The notes under the pieces are model-generated. The model was not told where the DNA came from, searched no databases, and saw only the letters and a program-made list of their open reading frames with translations. Made by a program: the position numbers and the translations under genes. 64,000 nt of DNA from Antedon mediterranea (lineage: Eukaryota > Echinodermata > Crinoidea > Comatulida > Antedonidae): NCBI RefSeq assembly GCF_964355755.1, contig NC_092672.1, positions 21,076,501 through 21,140,500 of the forward strand, written 5' to 3'. Below, in pieces: positions 3,879-34,222 of this stretch (positions are counted from its first letter, which is position 1; each line of letters starts with the position of its first letter).

Positions 3879-4440
3879 AATATAATTTAGTACATTAGTC
3901 TTTCAGTACAATTTGCTTAGACAATTTGATTGGCTAATACCCGATTTGAATAATGGCTTGGTAACCCAATCCCCTGTAATTGTAATTAATTTCAGAATCT
4001 GAACAATGGTATAATTATTCATCTGTTGAACAAATAACTAAACAAACTTCATAAGAAATATATCTTATTTTGTATTCTTACTATGTATTAATTACTCGTT
4101 ATAGGCCTACTTGATAATGTTTATTGTATCTTTTCTGGTGGGTAAGCCTTAAAGTTCTTTGAACTTATTTGCCCACCAGCCACACATCTTTCTATATATA
4201 TATATATGTTTATTTTTACTTAATTATCATATTCATTTTATGTGGAAAATCAATAAAAACAAAACAAAACAAAACAAAACCACTTGTACAAATAACAAAA
4301 CATAAAAACACAAACATTTAAGATATAAAAATAGCTGAAATGATTCTTTTTTAAGTTTCATATATAAAGCATGCAACATGCCATCATTTACAAAATAAAA
4401 TAATAATAGATCCATATTTAGTTTGTATAATTATTGTAAT

Positions 4441-4645
4441 ATTGTTTTATTATGTTGGGGACCCCTTTGGAAACAAGCCTCTGGGCTTAAAGGGCCATCC
4501 CCTGCTTTCCATGCTTATTTTCTTGTCTAGTCTTGTATTTCTATATTTAAATGTTTCTCTTTTTATTTCATTTACATTATACTGTTTTATATATTTGTAC
4601 TGTATTTGGAAAGCAATAAATATTACTTACTTACTTACTTACAAC
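4441..4645 (+). repeat. Retroposon 3' end with (TTAC)n tail
   Basis: A GC-richer stretch beginning near TTGGGGACCCC runs into AAGCAATAAATA and a TTAC microsatellite at about 4,622-4,642. This is the form of the 3' end of a CR1/L2-type LINE or a SINE that borrowed such a tail. No coding sequence is attached. The rest of 3,879-5,543 is AT-rich intron, with a weak tRNA-like stretch near 5,118-5,210 on the minus strand. Confidence 0.5.
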
Positions 4646-5543
4646 CTGGATTTCACACAGCAGTTTGAAACAAACAATTCAATTTTCCATTTATAAAATG
4701 TACCATAACATTAACAAATTGACAAAACCTAACCATTAAAAAAAAAAAAGCCTAAAACATTGTAGAACACTGGAGGCCTTTTGCTACCCCCTCCACCACC
4801 AGTTCCTGTGGCTGATTGTTCAAACTTTATATGATCATTTATATGATCTTCCCAACATAGGTATGATGCTATTTTGACACCAAGATTAGTTTGTGTTTTC
4901 TCAAAGATACAACCATTCTTCTGATAAAAAAATGTGATGAGATGTTTATCATGTGATATAGAAATAATTTGAAAATTAATTAATTAAACCTCTGAGGCAA
5001 ATGACAGTCATCAATGTTAATGATTGACTTTTTCCTTATTTAAAATATACGTCATGAACCAATCATGCAAATTAATTTAGATATTGACACAAACTACTTG
5101 TAGTAGTTATCAACATATTGGTGCACTACCCACTGATTCTTGAGGCTGAAATCAAACCCTATCAGCTCAAGCTCTGTGTTGTATACAGATTTAACCACCA
5201 GACTAGTGACTGTTTTATTACTACAGTATTACTATTTTATTATTGTATTCAATTATTCAAGACCCAACAGTGTATCAAAACACCAATACAGGATCAAAAT
5301 AAAAGTACAATATAACATATTTCCATGATAAAAATATTAACATAATTAAAAAACTATTCATTAAACATTAACAATTCAACAGATTTAGTTATTCAAGTTA
5401 TTTAAAATGACATTAAATGCTGTATAAGTATTAATGTGTAAGTATTACAACTAAAAATATCAATGTTAGGAAAAATTTAACTAGATCATTATAAAGCTCT
5501 GTTTACACTATTAAACTTTATGTGACAAAAAAATGTGATTTGC

Positions 5544-8500
5544 CCATATATGGACAAAATGATGCCATATCACCACCATATTTGGGCACATCACACATTT
5601 TTTTGTAAATCTAGTCTAGTGATAGTGTAGACATACAGTAACTGAAGTTGAGCAACATGACAGAAATAACTGTTTTTACTATATAACAGGCACATGAACA
5701 TGAGTTTTAAACCGCCTGATTATATACTGAAATTTGATTAATTAATTTGAAACAATAAAGATGAAGAAACATAAGAATATTTAAATTACAAATAAATTTG
5801 ACATTTAGTCCTTATGACACTCAAATCTTAAAACATTAATCCTCTCAACATTTTAAAAATTCTATAAGAATAATATTTAATATAATGTTGTTTTACTCTA
5901 CTATCACTTTGTTCTATATTTATTTTACTGCATGTTTGTGTCTTTGTTTTTCTGATTCTGAAATATTTAAAGTTATTGGTAAACTCTACACAGTAGGCAC
6001 ATTGTAAATAAACTATAGAAATTGATACCAAGAACTATGTTTATCCTCATTCTTTTAGAGAATCAAGACAGATTTTGTGGATTCATTTATTTCAAGATGG
6101 ATATTTTCAATAATCCTCATTATGGGATAATTTTAAAAATATGTTACCACTGTTATAATAGACAAACCAATTTCACAAGAAGAAAATATGTGAATGAAAT
6201 CATTAAGATTAGATTTGGGTTATGGCTGGTAGATTGTATACATTACAATTCATACTAATTGTGATAATATAATAAGACACACTATCACTCTAATAAATAG
6301 TAAACTGAATCAACAAATTAAACTTATTATAAATGATGGCAAATAATCACAATAAAAGCTTAAAAAATGCTTGCTCATTTGACTGGCACATAATTAGTAT
6401 GTTATGTTCAGGCCTAATTTGTCTAATTTTTTCTTAAGTACTTGACTACAGTCGGTAGTATAATAGCAATAATACTTGTTATTCTTTCAATGATTATTAT
6501 TATTTTTTTTTTTTACCATATTTAATGAGGGTGATCCATCCAGCAATTGCTGATCATTAGGGACCCTCAGAGGTTCACAAGACAAACATATACACAAGAT
6601 ACTCTACATAAACAAAGTCTTATTACAAGTCTTTGGGAGTGGAGTTGTAATGTTTTCTGACATGTGACAGGACTTGAACCCAGGATCCTTAATTATGATA
6701 ACACACTGTCTGTTATTATTTCATAGATCCTAAATGTATATCAAAGCAATGCTGAAAATTAGTATTATACAATGTTTGTTATAAAAGACATTAAGTTTTA
6801 ATTGATTAATTTTATTGATTAAACATTTTTTATTAGATTTATATTTTTTGCACGACAAAATAATATGAAAGAAAATATTTACTAAATAATTGTGAATAAA
6901 AAGTGAGGTTATGATTACACTGTCAACAATTGTGATGTACAAAATAAAAATGCCTACACACAAAACACACACAATAAACAGTAGGCCTAAATGATTATCA
7001 ACAAGCTATTACAAGTTGGAGTGGTGCAATTGAATATTAACAGCTACCAACACAATTTGAAATTTAAAATAAATTGTCCAGTTTTATAATTGCACTGTAA
7101 AATAATCCTATAAATGAAATTGTTTAAAACATGTAGGATACCTTTTATTTTCACAATAGTTTTGCATTAAAATAAAATTGATTATAGATGATATAGTTAG
7201 TATACTGTTATCTGTTTAATATTTCAGAATATAAATACCTTGATCATGAGCATAAGAATAGTTTACAAAAAAACAATACATTTTACAATGCTTTGTAGAA
7301 ATAATCATTTAAAATTGATTGTTGTTTTTAGGAAAATTATTTTCAACATTGAAAAAATATTAATTTATTAATATAAATTAAGGATATTTATAAGATTATT
7401 AATATTAGTCATTTTTTGTATGTTAGATATTAAGGAATATGATGTACATGTTTTGTAACTTTGTTTATTATTTAATATTTTCAATAGGATAGCTATACAG
7501 CATTAATATATGCTGCTGCAGCAGGTAATAGAACCATCTGCCAACTGGTCTTAGATGGTGGAGCTGATGTCAATATGCAGGCTAATGTAAGTCATACACA
7601 CAGTTTATAACATTAATTTAACCTTCAGTGAAACAAATCAATAAATTTAAACTATTGTTTTTAGAATTTAGATGACTACCAGTACTATAAGACTTTAGGA
7701 AAATCATAGATATTATATAATATCTCTATGGGAAGATTAATTTAGTTGACAATACACTAATGTAGTATCCATGTTATTATACTATTGTAGTTATATTATA
7801 ATAATACCAATTCTCGTAACAAACATATTTTAAATATATCTTGTACATTCTTAAAATGAATAGAATAACACAATACTGGGGTGTGTGTATATAGGTCAAT
7901 ATAGAAATGATGAATATTATAAGTTATAAACACATGCGCAATAACTTATTTTCTTCTTTTTTACAAATTCTCATACTATTACTATTCTGTTTAAACTTGC
8001 AATTAAATTTTTTGTATTAAGAACATGTATACTTCAAGTTACTTGTTTACACACTGTTATACCATAACATTAATATGTGTATTCAATAATATACACATTT
8101 ATTTTCCATAATTCATTGCCGAATGGTGCTTTAGAAATAAAGTGTGAAATGAATTTTACAGCACAGTTTTAAAATATTTTTGCTATTGATTATTATAATT
8201 TAACTACTGTACTGTAAAATAAAAACTGCTGATAGCATACACCTCAATCATCAAAGTTTGTAAAGTTAAATGGTATTATAGTATGTTTTTATAAATTGAT
8301 AACGTTCAATAAAATACTCATAACACTTTTCATAGCATAAACTTCTTTTGAATATTTAACTGTTTTTTAGTATTAGGCAGGTCAGAAAACAGGAATAACA
8401 TTTGTTGATATAAGTTTAAAAAAAAAAATGTACATTTAAAAAAAAAGTTGTGAACATGAATCATGTCTATCATCAACCTTCACCTTGATTCCTTTGCTCT

Positions 8501-11392: not shown

Positions 11393-12510
11393 GGGTATTG
11401 CTAAACTGCGCAAACACTGCGCAAACACTGCGCAAACAACAAAAAAAGCTGCGCAAACCTCCTTCAAAACAATTATTATTGATTAGAACACAACTAGAAC
11501 TATATAGGGAGACAATTTATGAGGAAAAAAATTTGAAATTCCTTTAAGTTTGCCTTTTTTTTTGGTGAAAAATTTCAATTTTTGGGAAAATTACTGATTT
11601 CACAGCGCAAACCCCCCAAAAAAGCTGCGCAAACCTCCTTCAAAACAATTAATATTGATAGAACACAACTAGACCTATATAGGAAGACAATTTATGGGAA
11701 AAAAAAATTGAATTTCCTTTAAGTTTGTCTTATTTTTGGTTAAAAACTTCAATTTTTTGAAAAAGTACTGATTTCACAGCGCAACCCCCAAAAAAAGCTG
11801 CGCAAACCTCCTTCAAAACAATTAATATTGATTAGAACACAACTAGAACTATATAGGGAGACAATTTATGGGGAAAAAAATTTGAAATTCCTTTAAGTTT
11901 GCCTTATTTTTGGTTAAAAACTTCAATTTTTGGGAAAATTACTGATTTCACAGCGCAAACAACAAAAAAAGCTGCGCAAACCTCCTTCAAAACAATTAAT
12001 ATTGATAGAACACAACTAGAACTATATAGGGAGACAATTTATGTGAAATAAAAGTTTGAAATTCCTTTAAGTTTACCTTTTTTTGGGTGAAAAACTTCAA
12101 TTTTTGGGAAAATTACTGATTTCACAGCGCAAACCCCCAAAAAAAGCTGCGCAAACCTCCTTCAAACCAATTATTATTGATTAGAACACAACTAGAACTA
12201 TATAGGGAGACAATTTATGGGAAAAAAATTTGAAATTCCTTCAAGTTTGCCTTTTTTTGGGTGAAAAACTTCAATTTTTGGGAAAATTACTGATTTCACA
12301 GCGCACCCCAAAAAAAGCTGCGCAAACCTCCTTCAAACCAATTAATATTGATTAAAACACAACTATACCAGATATAGGGAGACAATTTATGGGAAAAATA
12401 AATTGAAATTCCTTTAAGTTTGCCTTATTTTTGGTTAAAAACTTCAATTTTTTGGAAAATTACTGATTTCACAGCGCAAACAACAAAAAAAGCTGCGCAA
12501 ACCTTGTTGA

Positions 12511-14734: not shown

Positions 14735-14990
14735 CATTTGTGGGCGAAAAAGTCTCTCTTGTTTTTACATTTGTGGGCGTTATCACATTTGTGGGCGATG
14801 ATCGTTTTCACATTTGTGGGCGCTGTTTTCACATTTGTGGTTGATGCGTTTTCACATTTGTGGTTGTTTTCACATTTGTGGGTGATGCGTTTTCACATTT
14901 GTGGTTGTTTTCACATTTGTGGGTGATGCGTTTTCACATTTGTGGTTGTTTTCACATTTGTGGGCGTTTTCACATTTGTGGGTTCAACAA
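14735..14990. repeat. CACATTTGTGG short tandem repeats (right arm)
   Basis: Reverse-complement counterpart of 12,511-12,760, ending in GGGTTCAACAAAC where the expected arm order breaks. Confidence 0.9.
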
Positions 14991-15705
14991 ACCTCCTTCA
15001 AAACAATTAAGATTGATAGCACACAACTAGAACTATATAGGGAGACAATTTATGTGAAAAAAAAATTTGAAATTCCTTTAAGTTTGCCTTTTTTTGGGTG
15101 AAAAACTTCAATTTTTGGGAAAATTACTGATTTCACAGCGCAAACCCCCAAAAAAAGCTGCGCAAACCTCCTTCAAACCAATTATTATTGATTAGAACAC
15201 AACTAGAACTATATAGGGAGACAATTTATGAGAAAAAAAATTTGAAATTCCTTTAGTTTGCCTTTTTTTTGGTGAAAAACTTTAATATTTTGGGAAAATT
15301 ACAGATTTCACAGCGCAAACCCCCAAAAAAGCTGCGCAAACCTCCTTCAAACCAATTAATATTTATTAGAACACAACTAGACCTATATAGGGAGACATTT
15401 TATGGAAAAAAGTTTGCCTTTTTTGGGGGCAAAAACTTTAATTTAAATATTAATTGGTTTGAAGTAGGTTTGCGCAGCTTTTTTGGGGGGTTTGCGCTGT
15501 GAAATCAGTAATTTTCCCAAAAATTGAAGTTTTTAACCAAAAAAAGGCAAACTTAAAGGAATTTTACATTTTTTCCCCATAAATTGTCTCCCTATATAGG
15601 TCTAGTTGTGCTTTAATCAATAATAATTGGTTTGAAGGAGGTTTGCGCAGCTTTTTTTGTTATTTGCGCAGTGTTTGCGCAGTTTGCGCAGTTTAGCAAT
15701 ACCCT

Positions 15706-23440: not shown

Positions 23441-23710
23441 ATACATATATACAATGCTTTTACCTTTATATCTAAACATTAAAATGTTTTTTGATCTAAT
23501 TAATGATTTGACCACATTTTTCATATTAGGAAAGCTAATATATATATATAACTACTTTATAGTATTTGTTTGTTTAACACATGCTTTATCTAAAATATTC
23601 AAGCAAACATACCAACAAGCAAATTACGACTTTGATGAATTTATTTAATGTTAAACAACTTTATCTAAATTCATACTTGGATGACCAATAATGTTTTTAT
23701 TATATTTCAG

Positions 23711-23817
23711 TTTTAACAAAGAGCATTTAATAACAGATGGTATTGCCGTGATTAAAACAGTAGAAACAAAGGCTTAAGAACAAAAAAACTGGACAGCGGA
23801 TCTTACAGATGATTGTG
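23711..23817 (+). pseudogene. Duplicate ROC exon copy A with nonsense codon
   Basis: This 107-nt exon-like copy of 23,873-23,979 has an intact acceptor (ATATTTCAG) and a GTAAAA donor. In the frame set by the P-loop exon (phase 2) it reads FNKEHLITDGIAVIKTVETKA and then TAA at 23,774-23,776, where the other copy has AAA. Four other substitutions separate the copies. Its phase is 2 in and 1 out, so including both copies would shift the frame. It is either dead or, if spliced in, would truncate the protein inside ROC. Confidence 0.8.
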
Positions 23818-23872
23818 GTAAAAATGAATAAATTAAAGAATCGATAATGTTTTTGTATAAATTATATTTCAG

Positions 23873-23979
23873 ATTTAACAAAGAGCATTTAATAACAGAT
23901 GGTATTGCTGTGATTAAAACAGTAGAAACAAAGGCTAAAGAACAAAACAACTGGACAGAGGATCTTACAGATGATTGTG
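23873..23979 (+). CDS. ROC exon copy B (switch I region)
   Basis: A 107-nt exon with an open frame: FNKEHLITDGIAVIKTVETK, then AKEQNNWTEDLTDDC. The TDGI segment is the likely switch I threonine region of the ROC GTPase. The phase (2 in, 1 out) matches the P-loop exon before it and the exon at 26,227 after it. The donor GTAAAA is weak but is shared by both copies. Confidence 0.85.
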
Positions 23980-24359
23980 GTAAAAATGAATAAATTAAAG
24001 TATCATCATCATTATCCTCATCAAAGTAGACAAGCAAAATGAAGAGGGATAGATCATAAAGTCAGTCCATTTAAAGTGTGGCATTGTGTTTAATATTAGT
24101 GTTCATATACTGTAATTCACCAAGTTCAATTTTCAGGAATAAATCATATCATTTCCTTAATAAATCTAATTAATTTAATTAACAATGGCTCTAACAAACT
24201 TTTCCTAAAAACTAAAATTAATTAAGCAACATTGTAACAAATCCATCACTTAAATATCTCCTTAATATTCAGTAAAATATAAATAGTTATTAGTGAGAAA
24301 CTGAAAACTAAATGATAGCACATATTGTTATTAAAGGCAGAACAATTTGTGTATTTGTA

Positions 24360-26226: not shown

Positions 26227-26339
26227 GAAATCCAATTGAATTGTATAGAAGACTTGCTAAAGAAAATATCAGTAAAACAATAGAAGATAATAAAAAAGGT
26301 GTAGCAGCAGCAAGTAAGCCTCACAGCTCAACTGAAAAG
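26227..26339 (+). CDS. ROC exon with basic/charged linker
   Basis: A 113-nt exon, phase 1 in, phase 0 out. It encodes GNPIELYRRLAKENISKTIE, then DNKKGVAAASKPHSSTEK. It probably covers the end of a ROC helix and a flexible insertion before switch II. The donor is AAAAG/GTATGT, and this exact junction is the first unit of the 23-bp array that follows. Confidence 0.82.
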
Positions 26340-27930
26340 GTATGTACACACTATAACAAAAGGTATGTACACACTATAACAACAGGTGTGTACACACTAT
26401 AACAAAAGGTATGTACACAATATAACAAAAGGTATGTACACACTATAACAAAAGGTATGTACACACTATAACAAAAGGTGTGTACACACTATAACAAAAG
26501 GTGTGTACACACTATAACAAAAGGTGTGTACACACTATAACAAAAGGTGTGTACACACTATAACAAAAGGTATGTACACACTATAACAAAAGGCATGTAC
26601 ACACTATAACAAAAGGTGTGTACACACTATAACAAAAGGTGTGTACACACTATAACAAAAGGTGTGTACACACTATAACAAAAGGTGTGTACACACTATA
26701 ACAAAAGGTATGTACACACTATAACAAAAGGTATGTACACACTATAACAAAAGGTATGTACACACTATAACAAAAGGTGTGTACACACTATAACAAAAGG
26801 TGTGTACACACTATAACAAAAGGTATGTACACACTATAAGAAAAGGTATGTACACACTATAACAAAAGGTGTGTACACACTATAAAAGGTATGTACACAC
26901 TATAACAAAAGGTGTGTACACACTATAACAAAAGGTGTGTACACACTATAACAAAAGGTGTGTACACACTATAACAAAAGGTATGTACACACTATAACAA
27001 AAGGTATGTACACACTATAACAAAAGGTATGTACACAATACAACAAAAGGTATGTACACACTATAACAAAAGGTGTGTACACACTATAACAAAAGGTATG
27101 TACACAATATAACAAAAGGTATGTACACACTATAACAAAAGGTATGTACACACTATAACAACAGGTGTGTACACACTATAACAAATGGTATGTACACACT
27201 ATAACAAAATGTGTGTACACACTATAACAAAAGGTATGTACACACTATAACAAAAGGTATGTACACACTATAACAAAAGGTATGTACACACTATAACAAA
27301 AGGTATGTACACACTATAACAAAAGGTGCGTACACAATATAACAAAAGGTGTGTACACACTATAACAAAAGGTATGTACACACTATAAGAAAAGGTATGT
27401 ACACACTATAACAAAAGGTGTGTACACACTATAAAAGGTATGTACACACTATAACAAAAGGTGTGTACACACTATAACAAAAGGTGTGTACACACTATAA
27501 CAAAAGGTGTGTACACACTATAACAAAAGGTATGTACACACTATAACAAAAGGTATGTACACACTATAACAAAAGGTATGTACACAATACAACAAAAGGT
27601 ATGTACACACTATAACAAAAGGTGTGTACACACTATAACAAAAGGTATGTACACACTATAACAAAAGGTATGTACACACTATAACAAAAGGTATGTACAC
27701 ACTATAACAAAAGGTATGTACACACTATAAGAAAAGGTATGTACACACTATAACAAAAGGTATGTACACACTATAACAAAAGGTGTGTACACACTATAAC
27801 AAAAGGTGTGTACACACTATAACAAAAGGTATGTACACACTATAACAAAAGGTGTGTACACACTATAATAAAAGGTGTGTACACACTATAACAAAAGGTA
27901 TGTACACACTATAACAAAAGGTATGTACAC
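26340..27930 (+). repeat. 23-bp minisatellite carrying splice donors, part 1
   Basis: About 69 units. Each unit is GTATGTACACAC or GTGTGTACACAC followed by TATAACAAAAG. The first unit begins at the real splice donor of the preceding exon, and every unit repeats the exon-intron junction AAAAG/GTRTGT. The GTGTGTACACAC form is a perfect 12-bp palindrome. A few units are 20 bp (lacking CA or similar). A higher-order period of about 550 bp is visible from 26,830 to 27,600, with shared variants AAGAAAAG, ATAAAAGG and CAATACAAC. Confidence 0.97.
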
Positions 27931-29996
27931 CAGGCCCGTAGCCAGGGGGGGTTTTTATGGTTCGGGCGAACCCCCCCTTTACAGCGAACCCCCCTTAACC
28001 GACTGCGAACCCCATCCCCGACATGCCCAATACCTCACCCTCACCTCCGAAAATCGTCCAAATACGTGCCCCACAGTACAAAAAATTGTTCGTAAATTAA
28101 AAAATTCGTAAACTCGTTCGGAATAACTCATACAGTACCTTCTTCCCTGTATGAGCGTACTTCAAGCGATATAGTATGTAAAGAGTTGCAAATGAATTGC
28201 CGATTTTAACCTGAATAAATGTTTGGTCCCTGCATGTAACATGTACGGTGGCCTATAAGTGTCACGGCAACTTTCAAAAAATATCACGGCAACTTTCAAA
28301 AAAAGCTACGGCAATTTGAAAAAAGCCACGGCAATTTGAAAAAAGCCACGGCAAATTAAAAATAAAACATCACGGCAAATTAAAAATAAAACATCGCAGC
28401 AATTTAACAAAAATACCACGGCAACTTAAAAATGAAACACCACGGCAAATTAGTAATGAAACACCACGGCAAATTACAGAATGCCACGTCGGAAGTGAGT
28501 TACCACGGCGGAAGTGAAACCTTTGGAATCTTCGATTTTTTCTTATGTAAGTAATTATTTGTGCATTGAAGTAAATATTATTATATTAATTTATTATATT
28601 TAACTGCAGCATTTACGTGTTTATTGCACTAGGCCTAGCTATGCCTACTACTAGCCCTAGGCCTTAGGCCTACAGTAGTAGCTAGGTCTACTGTAAAAAC
28701 AACTTGTTATATAAAAAACAGATTACTGTAAATATATTAAAACATTGTAGAATGTTATAGGGCCTAGGCCTACCTTGTAATAAGGCCTATGGTCTAGCCC
28801 GGCCTAGAAAGTTCAAGAAGAGTGCAATAAACACGTAAACTGCTGCAGTTAAATAAATTAATATAATATTTACATCAATGCACAAATAATTACTTACCTC
28901 AGAAAAAATCGAAGATTCCAAAGGTTTCACTTCCGCCGTGGTAACTCACTTCCGCCGTGGCATTCTGTAATTTGCCGTCGTGTTTCACTATTAATTTGCC
29001 GTGGTGTTTCAATACTAATTTGCCTTGGTGTTTCATTTTTAAGTTGCCCTGGTATTTTTGTTACCGTAAATTGCCGCGATGCTTTTATTTTTAATTTGCC
29101 GTGATGTTTTATTTTTAATTTGCCGTGGCTTTTTTTCAAATTGCCGTGGCTTTTTTTCCAATTGCCGTGGCTTTTTTCAAATTGCCGTGGCTTTTTTTGA
29201 AAAAATTGCCGTGATATTTTTTGAAAGTTGCCGTGACACTTATAGGCCACCGTAAACATGATATTGACGCGTCTCAAAGCGAGCTGGGGGACGAACGATT
29301 CGTACAATTCGTACAAAGGACACCGACAGACAACTGCGTACCAATTGTTTAGATCACTGGCAGTCAGGCAGCATGCATAAAGTATAGCCTTCCGACATAC
29401 ATCAGTATTTATGTGTGGCTATGAAGTATAATGTATCATAGAGGATTATAGTGAATATTAATATTTTACACTATAATATCTATGGTATCATGTACTGTAG
29501 TTCAAATTATGGCATCCGATTATTTTTTTCTAGACCACCAGCCGATACGTATCAATATCACCTATTTACATTGGCATATTTAATTTCCTCAACAAATTGC
29601 TGTAAATAAATATTATAGATAGAGCTATAATAAGAATAGCATTTTCCTTCACCCAGTGTGCTTTTTTCGGGGCTTCTCCTAGACGTACGTTCGCATTGAA
29701 CTTGAACGCAAAACAAAATATCGAGTCGAGCGGTTCCGCACAGAGCACGCGCATCTAACATACGGCAACAAATGTTATTGTTTAAATAGTCCACGAGTCC
29801 AAGTACGATCGTTTTGCTCATTGGTAGCATGCTGCATGAGAGTGTCTTTTCCGGCCATCTAGGGGTGTCATTTAAAAAAATTTGCTTCGCCTCAGGCCCT
29901 ACCCCAGGGGGGGGGGGGGGGCTAGGTATGGGGGTGGGGGTGACCCAAATACTTAGTGTGCGAACCCCCCCTTGACAGATCCTGGCTACGGCCCTG
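27931..29996. mobile_element. TIR element with 1-kb internal palindrome, inserted in the array
   Basis: The ends CAGGCCCGTAGCCAGG and CCTGGCTACGGCCCTG form imperfect 16-bp inverted repeats, followed on both sides by a GCGAACCCCCCCTT stretch. TACAC flanks both ends, possibly a 5-bp target-site duplication, although the array itself is repetitive. Inside, 28,239-28,690 is the inverse of about 28,770-29,260, and the arms are made of repeated CACGGCAA motifs spaced by A/T runs. Open frames there (28,927-29,316, minus) are repeat products. No transposase was recognised. Confidence 0.85.
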
Positions 29997-32420
29997 TACA
30001 CACTATAACAAAAGGTGTGTACACACTATAACAAAAGGTATGTACACACTATAACAAAAGGTGTGTACACACTATAACAAAAGGTGTGTACACACTATAA
30101 CAAAAGGTATGTACACACTATAACAAAAGGTATGTACACACTATAACAAAAGGTGTGTACACACTATAACAAAAGGTATGTACACACTATAACAAAAGGT
30201 ATGTACACACTATAACAAAAGGTGTGTACACACTATAACAAAAGGTATGTACACACTATAACAAAAGGTGTGTACACACTATAACAAAAGGTGTGTACAC
30301 ACTATAACAAAAGGTATGTACACACTATAACAAAAGGTATGTACACACTATAACAAAAGGTGTGTACACACTATAACAAAAGGTATGTACACACTATAAC
30401 AAATGGTGTGTACACACTATAACAAAAGGTGTGTACACACTATAACAAAAGGTATGTACACACTATAACAAAAGGTGTGTACACACTATAACAAAAGGTA
30501 TGTACACACTATAACAAAAGGTATGTACACACTATAACAAAAGGTGTGTACACACTATAACAAAAGGTATGTACACACTATAACAAAAGGTGTGTACACA
30601 CTATAACAAAAGGTATGTACACACTATGACAAAAGGTATGTACACACTATAACAAAAGGTGTGTACACACTATAACAAAAGGTGTGTACACACTATAACA
30701 AAAGGTGTGTACACACTATAACAAAAGGTGTGTACACACTATAAAAGGTATGTACACACTATAACAAAAGGTGTGTACACACTATAACAAAAGGTATGTA
30801 CACACTATAACAAAAGGTGTGTACACACTATAACAAAAGGTATGTACACACTATAACAAAAGGTATGTACACACTATGACAAAGGTATGTACACACTATA
30901 ACAAAAGGTATGTACACACTATAACAAAAGGTATGTACACACTATAACAAAAGGTATGTACACACTATAACAAAAGGTATGTACACACTATAACAAAAGG
31001 TATGTACACACTATGACAAAGGTATGTACACACTATAACAAAAGGTGTGTACACACTATAACAAAAGGTGTGTACACACTATAACAAAAGGTATGTACAC
31101 ACTATAACAAAAGGTGTGTACACACTATAACAAAAGGTGTGTACACACTATAACAAAAGGTATGTACACACTATAACAAAAGGTGTGTACACACTATAAC
31201 AAAAGGTGTGTACACACTATAACAAAAGGTGTGTACACACTATAACAAAAGGTGTGTACACACTATAACAAAAGGTATGTACACACTATAACAAAAGGTG
31301 TGTACACACTATAACAAAAGGTGTGTACACACTATAACAAAAGGTGTGTACACACTATAACAAAAGGTGTGTACACACTATAACAAAAGGTATGTACACA
31401 CTATGACAAAAGGTATGTACACACTATGACAAAAGGTATGTACACACTATAACAAAAGGTATGTACACACTATAACAAAAGGTATGTACACACTATAACA
31501 AAAGGTGTGTACACACTATAACAAAGGGTATGTACACACTATGACAAAAGGTGTGTACACACTATGACAAAAGGTGTGTACACACTATGACAAAAGGTGT
31601 GTACACACTATAACAAAAGATGTGTACACACTATAACAAAAGATATGTACACACTATAACAAAAGGTGTGTACACACTATAACAAAAGGTGTGTACACAC
31701 TATGACAAAAGGTGTGTACACACTATGACAAAAGGTGTGTACACACTATAACAAAAGGTGTGTACACACTATAACAAAAGGTATGTACACACTATAACAA
31801 AAGATATGTACACACTATAACAAAAGGTGTGTACACACTATAACAAAAGGTATGTACACACTATGACAAAAGGTGTGTACACACTATGACAAAAGGTGTG
31901 TACACACTATAACAAAAGGTGTGTACACACTATAACAAAAGGTATGTAGACACTATAACAAAAGGTGTGTACACACTATAACAAAAGGTGTGTACACACT
32001 ATAACAAAAGGTATGTACACACTATAACAAAAGGTATGTACACACTATAACAAAAGGTGTGTACACACTATAACAAAAGGTGTGTACACACTATAACAAA
32101 AGGTATGTACACACTATAACAAAAGGTGTGTACACACTATAACAAAAGGTGTGTACACACTATAACAAAAGGTGTGTACACACTATAACAAAAGGTGTGT
32201 ACACACTATAACAAAAGGTATGTACACACTATAACAAAAGGTGTGTACACACTATAACAAAAGGTATGTACACACTATAACAAAAGGTGTGTACACACTA
32301 TAACAAAAGGTGTGTACACACTATAACAAAAGGTATGTACACACTATAACAAAAGGTGTGTACACACTATAACAAAAGGTGTGTACACACTATAACAAAA
32401 GGTGTGTACACACTATAACA
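29997..32420 (+). repeat. 23-bp minisatellite carrying splice donors, part 2
   Basis: About 105 more units of the same 23-bp repeat, in phase with part 1 after removal of the inserted element. Variants include ACTATGACAAAAG and AAAAGATATGT. The array stops at 32,420 in ACTATAACAACTATGCGAGC, where a different repeat begins. Confidence 0.97.
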
Positions 32421-33480
32421 ACTATGCGAGCGAAGCGCGCTTCACTAGGCTGGGGGCCAGGAGGCGAAGCCCCCGGAATCAACATGTTTTAGCGTCATTT
32501 GAGGCCAATTTAATCAGATTTTGGGTAGTCGTATCACTTTTTTCCATTTTTTATAATGCATAAATAAAATACTGCTTGCAAAAAAACGATGCGCGATGAC
32601 TGTTTAAATCAATATTTTTCAATTTAAAAAAAAAAAGTTCAAAATATGCCTATATTTATCGGGTAAATTGTAGCATAGAAAATATACGCAAACGTAAAAC
32701 GTACCCACAGACCAAGAGGTAGGCCTATATTGTTTATTGCAGAGGCGTAGGCTGGTTGCTGTCTGGGGGTGCAAAAATAGTAAATGGGTGCCTTGGGCTG
32801 ATCTGTAAGAAAATTTTGAAAAATAGAGCTGCTAGGTCCCTGGAAGTTGCAATTATACATAATATTGATTGGCCTACTATGAAACGAAATTACAAGTCTA
32901 CAGAACGAGGTTGGGATGGAGCTAAGAAAATTTAGATAAATAGAGTTGGAGATCCCGGAAATTGGACTTTTTATACTTCAAAACATGAAACAAAATATAC
33001 AAGTCCCTATCATGGTTGTGACTGAGCTATGAAATGTTTGAAAAATAGAGCTGTTAGGTCCCGAAAAATGCACTTATTGTACTTCGAAATATGACCAGCT
33101 TTATGGTTGGGGCTGAGCTAAGAAAACTTTTAAAACTAGAGCTGCAGGTCTTTAAAAATTGCATCTTATACTTTGAAAACATCAGGCCTAGAGGCTTAAA
33201 AAAAGTGGTCGTAAGCGACGGGAAAATCATTTTATACCTCCCAAGTGTATGCGTGCGTACCATCTGGACTTCCGAGTACAAAAGTATAGTTAGTACAAGA
33301 GTTAGCTATAATAAGATGTTGGCTAAGCGAAAATGGCATGTTTTTTTGTTTAGTAATGTATGAAATATTTATTTTAGGTGCCCCACGGTACAGAGGGTTA
33401 CTTGTAAATTTAAAAATTGGTGAACATACGAAAAATTGACAATTCGTTTTTGCTTTAGCGTACATTCTAGGCTCCCCGAC
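32421..33480. repeat. Transposon-like terminus and decayed about 90-120 bp tandem repeats
   Basis: The left edge has GCGAGCGAAGCGCGC and GGGGGCCAGGAGGCGAAGCCC hairpins, like ends of Helitron-type or other mobile elements. From about 32,798 to 33,187, four diverged copies of a unit with GAGCTAAGAAAA...AAATAGAGCTGTTAGGTCCC are visible. A GTAGGCTGGTTGCTGTCTGG stretch near 32,747 may be a decayed terminal repeat. No credible gene is present; 33,481-34,021 is AT-rich intron. Confidence 0.5.
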
Positions 33481-34021: not shown

Positions 34022-34067
34022 GAAAAGTCACGTCCAAATAAGAGAGACAAAGGAATAACATTTTTTG
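34022..34067 (+). CDS. 46-nt linker exon
   Basis: Phase 0 in, phase 1 out; acceptor TTCTTGTCAG, donor GTATGA. It encodes EKSRPNKRDKGITFF, a basic linker. It is the first exon after the 8-kb repeat-filled intron. The call rests on borders, phase and position rather than domain content. Confidence 0.6.
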
Positions 34068-34222
34068 GTATGAATTGGGAAACAATTCGTCAAAAGATAA
34101 ATTCCTTTTTCTGTAATCAGTTTATTGAGTTTGGTAATTTACGAATTGATTTTGAAATAAATATTCATGTACATTTTGGTAAACTAAATTTATGTTTTTT
34201 AGTTCAAAACTACCACAAACAG

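Follow-up and report, generated by a model that had tools for sequence, protein, structure and literature searches.

Tandem repeats at splice donors

The human gene IFI6 (6-16), with a 12 bp repeat present in about 26 copies, is the closest described counterpart of the structure examined here. Turri, Cuin and Porter reportedly recognised this repeat in 1995 as a minisatellite with multiple splice donor sites. The passages on the gene in PMC4526556 describe two downstream repeat units that act as donors, giving rise to three mRNA species. The structure examined here is a 23 bp minisatellite that begins at the splice donor of an exon in a 64,000-nucleotide stretch of the Antedon mediterranea genome (C3:21076501–21140500, hereafter the window; G+C content 31.5 % in a genome of 354 Mb in 18 contigs). 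It resembles the IFI6 repeat, as described in those passages, in being a tandem repeat at an exon donor with donors in its units. It differs in its size of 69–220 units per array, in its presence in five copies of the gene, in the occurrence of comparable arrays in as many as six more genes, and in that the units of 19, 23, 31, 37 and 40 bp are not multiples of three, so that the later donors would almost never be productive.

Two other systems are related. Tandem duplication of an AGGT segment is known as a source of introns, and the sections of PMC4974935 dealing with it include multi-copy 24 bp cases from fission yeast in which the introns span several copies. The arrays found here share with that route (the Rogers model, ATP2A1 and the fission yeast arrays, as far as those sections cover them) a short tandem duplication bearing AG/GT, but in the gene family of the window the array-free paralogs described below indicate that no new intron arose, that an existing one was lengthened and that copies of the exon end became intron. 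Ordinary intronic minisatellites are alike in unit size, repeated variant blocks and transposon insertions, whereas the present arrays start on the splice junction itself and include exon bases. No title describing a recurrent class of junction-born donor arrays was found in the open-licence literature, which is weak evidence of absence.

An array that starts at an exon–intron border

Tandem Repeats Finder detected 69.7 copies of the 23 bp unit at 26335–27930 and 105.7 copies at 29995–32421, about 175 in total with 95–96 % matching. The border at 26,339/26,340, which reads ...ACTGAAAAG/GTATGTACACAC, is the exact start of the array, and the unit is made up of six exon bases (GAAAAG) followed by 17 intron bases (GTATGTACACACTATAA). 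A preliminary description of the window had given a single array at 26340–32420. Its exact start at the border and the approximate copy number were borne out, but it is not one array, as it is split by an insert at 27931–29996. The features in this part of the window are as follows.

26227..26339, + strand: exon ending ACT GAA AAG (preceded by the codon TCA); the GAAAAG at its end supplies the six exon bases of the unit
26340..27930, + strand: first 23 bp array block, with donor 1 at 26340
27931..29996, no strand: transposon of 2,066 bp inside the array, with a TACAC target duplication at 27926–27930 and 29997–30001
29997..32421, + strand: second 23 bp array block, from the tandem repeat analysis
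32422..33462, no strand: dispersed-repeat remnant at the right border of the array, with the same border in all five junction copies
34022..34096, + strand: next exon (GAA AAG TCA CGT ...), joined in frame from donor 1 only

The insert has inverted ends (CAGGCCCGTAGCCAGG/CCTGGCTACGGCCCTG), and the TACAC duplication, read directly in the sequence, belongs to the repeat unit. As repeat units adjoin it on both sides, the insert is younger than the array. A palindromic element with inverted arms is nested within it at approximately 28244–29254, and the outer and inner parts of the insert are found apart from each other elsewhere in the genome. Copies of the remnant at 32422..33462 that lie elsewhere extend further out at the left end (three inspected). 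The end of the exon at 34022..34096 was taken from the paralogs, since the donor that follows it at 34097 is AT in the window copy; it is GT in the other four junction-array paralogs.

The label of ROC exon given earlier to the exon ending at 26,339 is weak, as this exon has no Pfam match and the P-loop exon of the gene matches Roc in Pfam at E=0.049 only. The Death-domain exon gave a clear match (5.6e-10). AG/GT is present in the units, but the ACACACTATAACAAAAG that precedes it has no pyrimidine tract, so the repeat does not have the form of an array of recursive splice sites, and use of AAAAG as an acceptor, also suggested earlier, appears unlikely.

Copies of the unit in the genome

When the genome was searched with a two-unit pattern, 574 exact matches were found in the forward direction, none in reverse and none for a reversed control. 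These matches are not due to chance. Five junction arrays hold 497 of them and three further arrays on the same contig hold 67, while all 33 matches to the left edge of the array fall within the five junction arrays. Since 564 of the 574 matches are thus confined to eight arrays, all on one contig and all belonging to a single gene family, the unit does not have the distribution of an introner-like element.

The five gene copies with junction arrays are found on C3 at 21.10 (the window), 22.24, 23.67, 24.05 and 24.64 Mb and contain 170, 69, 205, 220 and 146 matched units, respectively. GT starts 793 of these 810 units. The same exon border is the start of the array in all five, so that every copy having the exon has an array that begins at the exon donor and is built of donor-bearing units; the 24.64 Mb copy has a short insertion after GTATGT in its first unit. 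Four more distant paralogs of the exon have no array. Their border is GAAAAC/GTACGTA in three cases and AAAGAT/GTGAGTA in one, hence a donor-like border is present at the aligned place in all four, a comparison that concerns the border only, as their downstream exons were not located. All of these comparisons are between paralogs within one genome.

The 24.05 Mb paralog also contains a 63 bp minisatellite of about 36 units, judged by length, in the intron before the array exon (positions 4382–6650 of the fetched stretch). This second intron array in the gene family has a single match in the window at approximately 24059–24125.

Origin from the splice junction

The array grew from the splice junction, because its unit is composed of six exon bases and 17 intron bases. 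This agrees with the preliminary description and with the two further observations that the array touches the junction in all five array copies possessing the exon and that an unexpanded border is present in four of four array-free paralogs. The border GAAAAC/GTACGTA seen in three of these paralogs is close to GAAAAG/GTATGTA. Most units now read CAAAAG, with G at that place in 51 of 810. GTACGT, the donor of the same three paralogs, is a minority unit type in two arrays (60 of 77 units with C at position 4).

The right end of the array is GTATGTACACACTATAAGAACATTCCC, or the GTGTGT form of it, in four of the five junction copies, and the last unit runs ...GTRTGTACACACTATAAGAACATTCCC. Should this last unit represent the old intron, the 23-base segment GAAAAGGTATGTACACACTATAA would lie between two copies of GAA, the first exonic and the second intronic, which is the arrangement expected when slipped pairing produces a duplication.

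Blocks of variant units recur within the arrays, as unequal exchange would give. An alignment of 2.7 kb upstream of the array included 26 informative sites that join the window copy with the 24.64 Mb copy and seven that join it with the 24.05 Mb copy. On the downstream side, the window copy is grouped with the 24.05 Mb copy by 32 sites and with the 24.64 Mb copy by none. The conflicting kinship of the two flanks therefore points to recombination or conversion with a breakpoint within, or close to, the intron that holds the array.

Only the first donor leaves an open frame

For all matched units of the five copies in which GT is intact (165, 69, 201, 216 and 143 donors, 794 in total), the join between the exon and the one that follows was constructed. 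The frame was open from donor 1 in five of five copies and from none of the 789 later donors. A stop codon was met inside the retained repeat in 781 of these and after the join in the other eight, which speaks against useful exon-length variation in the 23-nucleotide steps suggested earlier. The exon at 26227..26339 is stop-free in all five copies, as are all four exons considered. Coding continuity thus argues against productive use of multiple donors, to the extent that this can be read from sequence.

Junction-born arrays in other genes

The genome was also searched for closely spaced tandem triplets of donors. This gave four sets of matches, of which the first 100 of 191 and of 101, together with all of 38 and 33, were considered. 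At least 20 different donor arrays were present among the matches listed, and the 5′ flank was retrieved for 15 of them. In six of the 15 the array begins where an open exon ends, while the other nine do not have this arrangement or are unclear; as the 15 were chosen by donor motif, this proportion is not a genome frequency. The units of the six are made up of exon bases and the first intron bases, differ from the unit in the window, and in every case the next exon was found behind the array, across introns of 202–1092 bp.

Three of the six genes are homologs of DHX8 (37 bp unit; exon match 1.1e-20), TDP2 (31 bp unit; 1.4e-10) and UTP6 (31 bp unit; 1.2e-7), and in these the join from donor 1 is gapless across the border when compared with solved proteins. 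The fourth is a CUB-domain gene with a 23 bp unit (9.7e-17). The fifth, a DHX16-like gene with three copies of a 40 bp unit, was matched by the joined peptide at 3.9e-4 with small gaps near the join, and its name leans also on what we take its downstream exons to be. The sixth has a 19 bp unit and no database match; we presume it to be aminotransferase-V-like. Exon end and units have in common an exact stretch of at most 29 bases for DHX8, 23 for TDP2, 10 for UTP6, 22 for the CUB-domain gene and nine each for the 19 bp and DHX16-like genes. When donors of the form AG/GT[AG][AT]G were joined to the next exon, the frame was open from donor 1 in six of six genes and from none of 77 later donors.

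The acceptor side was searched in the same way. Triple matches to TTTTTCAG numbered 29 against 24 for the control, and one of 11 arrays inspected was junction-born. The difference between donor and acceptor sides (6/15 versus 1/11) was not significant (Fisher p 0.18). The one junction-born case, a 39 bp array at an acceptor junction in which TTTTTCAG and nine exon bases are repeated, lies at C1:41235890–41236790; the exon that follows is presumably DEAD-box helicase-like.

A duplication probably tolerated within the intron

These arrays are probably passengers, descended from a 23 bp duplication that spanned the junction in an ancestral Death-domain/P-loop gene, expanded, and was tolerated since the exon-most donor would be the one used. 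A segment consisting of GAAAAG and GTATGTACACACTATAA would have been tandemly duplicated in the ancestor, perhaps by slippage between short GAA repeats. A duplication that spans the junction would leave the original exon and donor in place and put a second donor downstream. With the exon-most donor in use, the later copies would be intronic and the mRNA unaltered, so that these copies could expand and mutate freely, acquire transposons and undergo recombination, and unequal exchange would have expanded them to the 69–220 matched units per copy now seen in five gene copies. The later donors would be ignored, rather than used and their products degraded. Use of a later donor would nearly always break the frame and such alleles would be lost, so the extant arrays would be those in which donor 1 wins. 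The same process has acted separately in as many as six other genes of the genome.

Three shorter arrays, found on C3 at 22.76, 23.22 and 23.52 Mb with 18, 17 and 39 matched units, do not lie at the junction. They have one left flank in common, which has no similarity to the region upstream of the array in the window, and the exon at 26227..26339 was not found near them in exon searches. To their right is the last part of the remnant at 32422..33462 (from approximately base 909 of 1041) followed by the same intron, and the downstream exon region was seen in two of the three (5 kb retrieved). As the five junction arrays adjoin the remnant at its start, the best explanation for these three is that they were derived by truncation, with the breakpoints lying inside the array. 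Array and junction can evidently separate, and for the order of events we infer that the junction came first.

Several points weigh against this account. An array that does not touch the junction in relatives had been named beforehand as a finding that would speak against growth from it, and three of the eight arrays do not touch the exon; these have no exon and appear to be truncated, a derivation that is read from the cut remnant. Ten of the 574 pattern matches are unplaced. Since other copies of the remnant extend further out, the GAA to the right could be what is left of a truncated unit joined to it, and the microhomology is only suggestive; in both cases the last bases of the exon form part of the unit. 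The unit body bears a weak likeness to the array-free introns (best p approximately 0.01 among twelve tests, of three introns by four unit bodies, post hoc); two of the twelve gave p <0.02, both with one intron and a minority unit variant, and homology of unit body and intron was not made a main line of evidence. In the wider search, donor-triple matches gave a mixed picture against reversed controls (191 versus 245, 38 versus 17, 101 versus 38 and 33 versus 15), and no genome-wide excess of donor-bearing arrays is claimed. When any preceding bases were allowed before GT[AG][AT]GT, the six other genes had 82 later donors, and two of these were open, both of them non-AG donors in the 19 bp gene, at +57 and +114.

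The choice of donor is a further difficulty, as it is from coding continuity that we infer donor 1 to be the one in fact used. The later donors are identical to it in sequence, and it was not predicted to be more accessible than they are in any of the five copies, so that neither property explains why it would win. Masking by RNA structure was rejected as the cause, since arrays whose unit bodies had been shuffled proved just as inaccessible, 24 of 40 being no higher than the real median, and donor 1 was no more open. The ratio of nonsynonymous to synonymous change (dN/dS) among the five copies, based on few differences, was 0.63–1.46 over four exons and 0.27–1.10 without the Death exon, values that are not low and do not prove purifying selection, so rapid evolution or partial decay of the five genes is possible. 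The case made from coding continuity is better founded in the DHX8, TDP2 and UTP6 homologs.

Alternative explanations

The array could instead act as a damper of expression, with a share of transcripts spliced at later donors, carrying stop codons and undergoing nonsense-mediated decay, and with array length tuning the amount of protein from each paralog. The later donors are good matches to U1, the unit donors being among the top 0.4–0.8 % of 15-mers in the window by estimated duplex energy, all would yield stops, and array length varies three-fold, from 69 to 220 matched units, among the five copies. However, no selection on the later donors was seen in a coarse count of distinct changes per site (5.0 in GT, 5.1 in the nine-base donor and 3.8 in the body), and the same arrangement in the DHX8 and UTP6 homologs fits tolerance better than tuning. 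We therefore consider damping unlikely.

The density of donors and the same estimate of U1 pairing would also suit a sink or platform for U1, in which more than 100 sites bind the U1 small nuclear ribonucleoprotein and either shield a long intron from premature polyadenylation or deplete U1 locally. Against this, units with GTGTGT were predicted to be 7–16 times less accessible than those with GTATGT (first 2.2 kb of the five arrays), the donors have no excess conservation, and the introns of 202–1092 bp in the six other genes would scarcely need such protection, which makes a role of this kind very unlikely.

An origin within a transposon, in the manner of an introner, or elsewhere in the intron, with a coincidental match to the exon end, is highly improbable. 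The remnant is found to the right of the array in five of five junction copies and three arrays lie away from the exon, as such an origin might give. Nevertheless, all 35 listed transposon copies that are not paralogs match only outside the unit (40 of 563 candidates scored), and a near-identical junction is present in array-free paralogs. The off-junction arrays meet the remnant deeper, and would thus derive from a state like that of the junction arrays and not the reverse.

Finally, that alternative donors provide useful variants of protein length, for which IFI6 is a precedent as presented in the relevant passages of PMC4526556 and to which the open donors at +57 and +114 in the uncharacterised 19 bp gene could be assigned, is scarcely credible given units of 23, 31, 37, 19 and 40 bp, none a multiple of three, and the lack of open later joins among the 789 in the five copies, where the sequence of the window gene contradicts it, and the 77 AG/GT donors in the six other genes.

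Implications for intron growth and donor choice

More tentatively than the account of a tolerated duplication itself, it is plausible that introns in this lineage have repeatedly grown through short duplications at donor junctions, which would expand because the spliceosome reliably takes the exon-most of tens to hundreds of near-identical donors. To our knowledge, work on the choice among equal and close donors has mostly used reporter genes with two or three sites. If these proposals are correct, the genome would amount to a set of natural competition experiments between 5′ splice sites in conserved genes, including homologs of splicing helicases. In this genome, several genes with open frames have from three to approximately 220 copies of their own donor, arranged in tandem and in native context, and the protein would survive almost only via the first. 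Such duplications would also offer a plain route by which exon sequence is turned into intron sequence with function kept. The interest lies in the recurrence within one genome and in this natural competition between donors.

Other features of the window

Upstream of the array exon, at 23699–24004, an exon (the FNKEHLITDGIAVIKTVETKAKEQNNWTEDLTDDCG region) is tandemly duplicated together with its acceptor with a period of 162 bp, and the first copy contains a stop codon. Similar 174 bp tandem repeats at 11426–12504 and 14988–15411 flank a stretch at 12.5–15 kb, and are perhaps parts of another large element.

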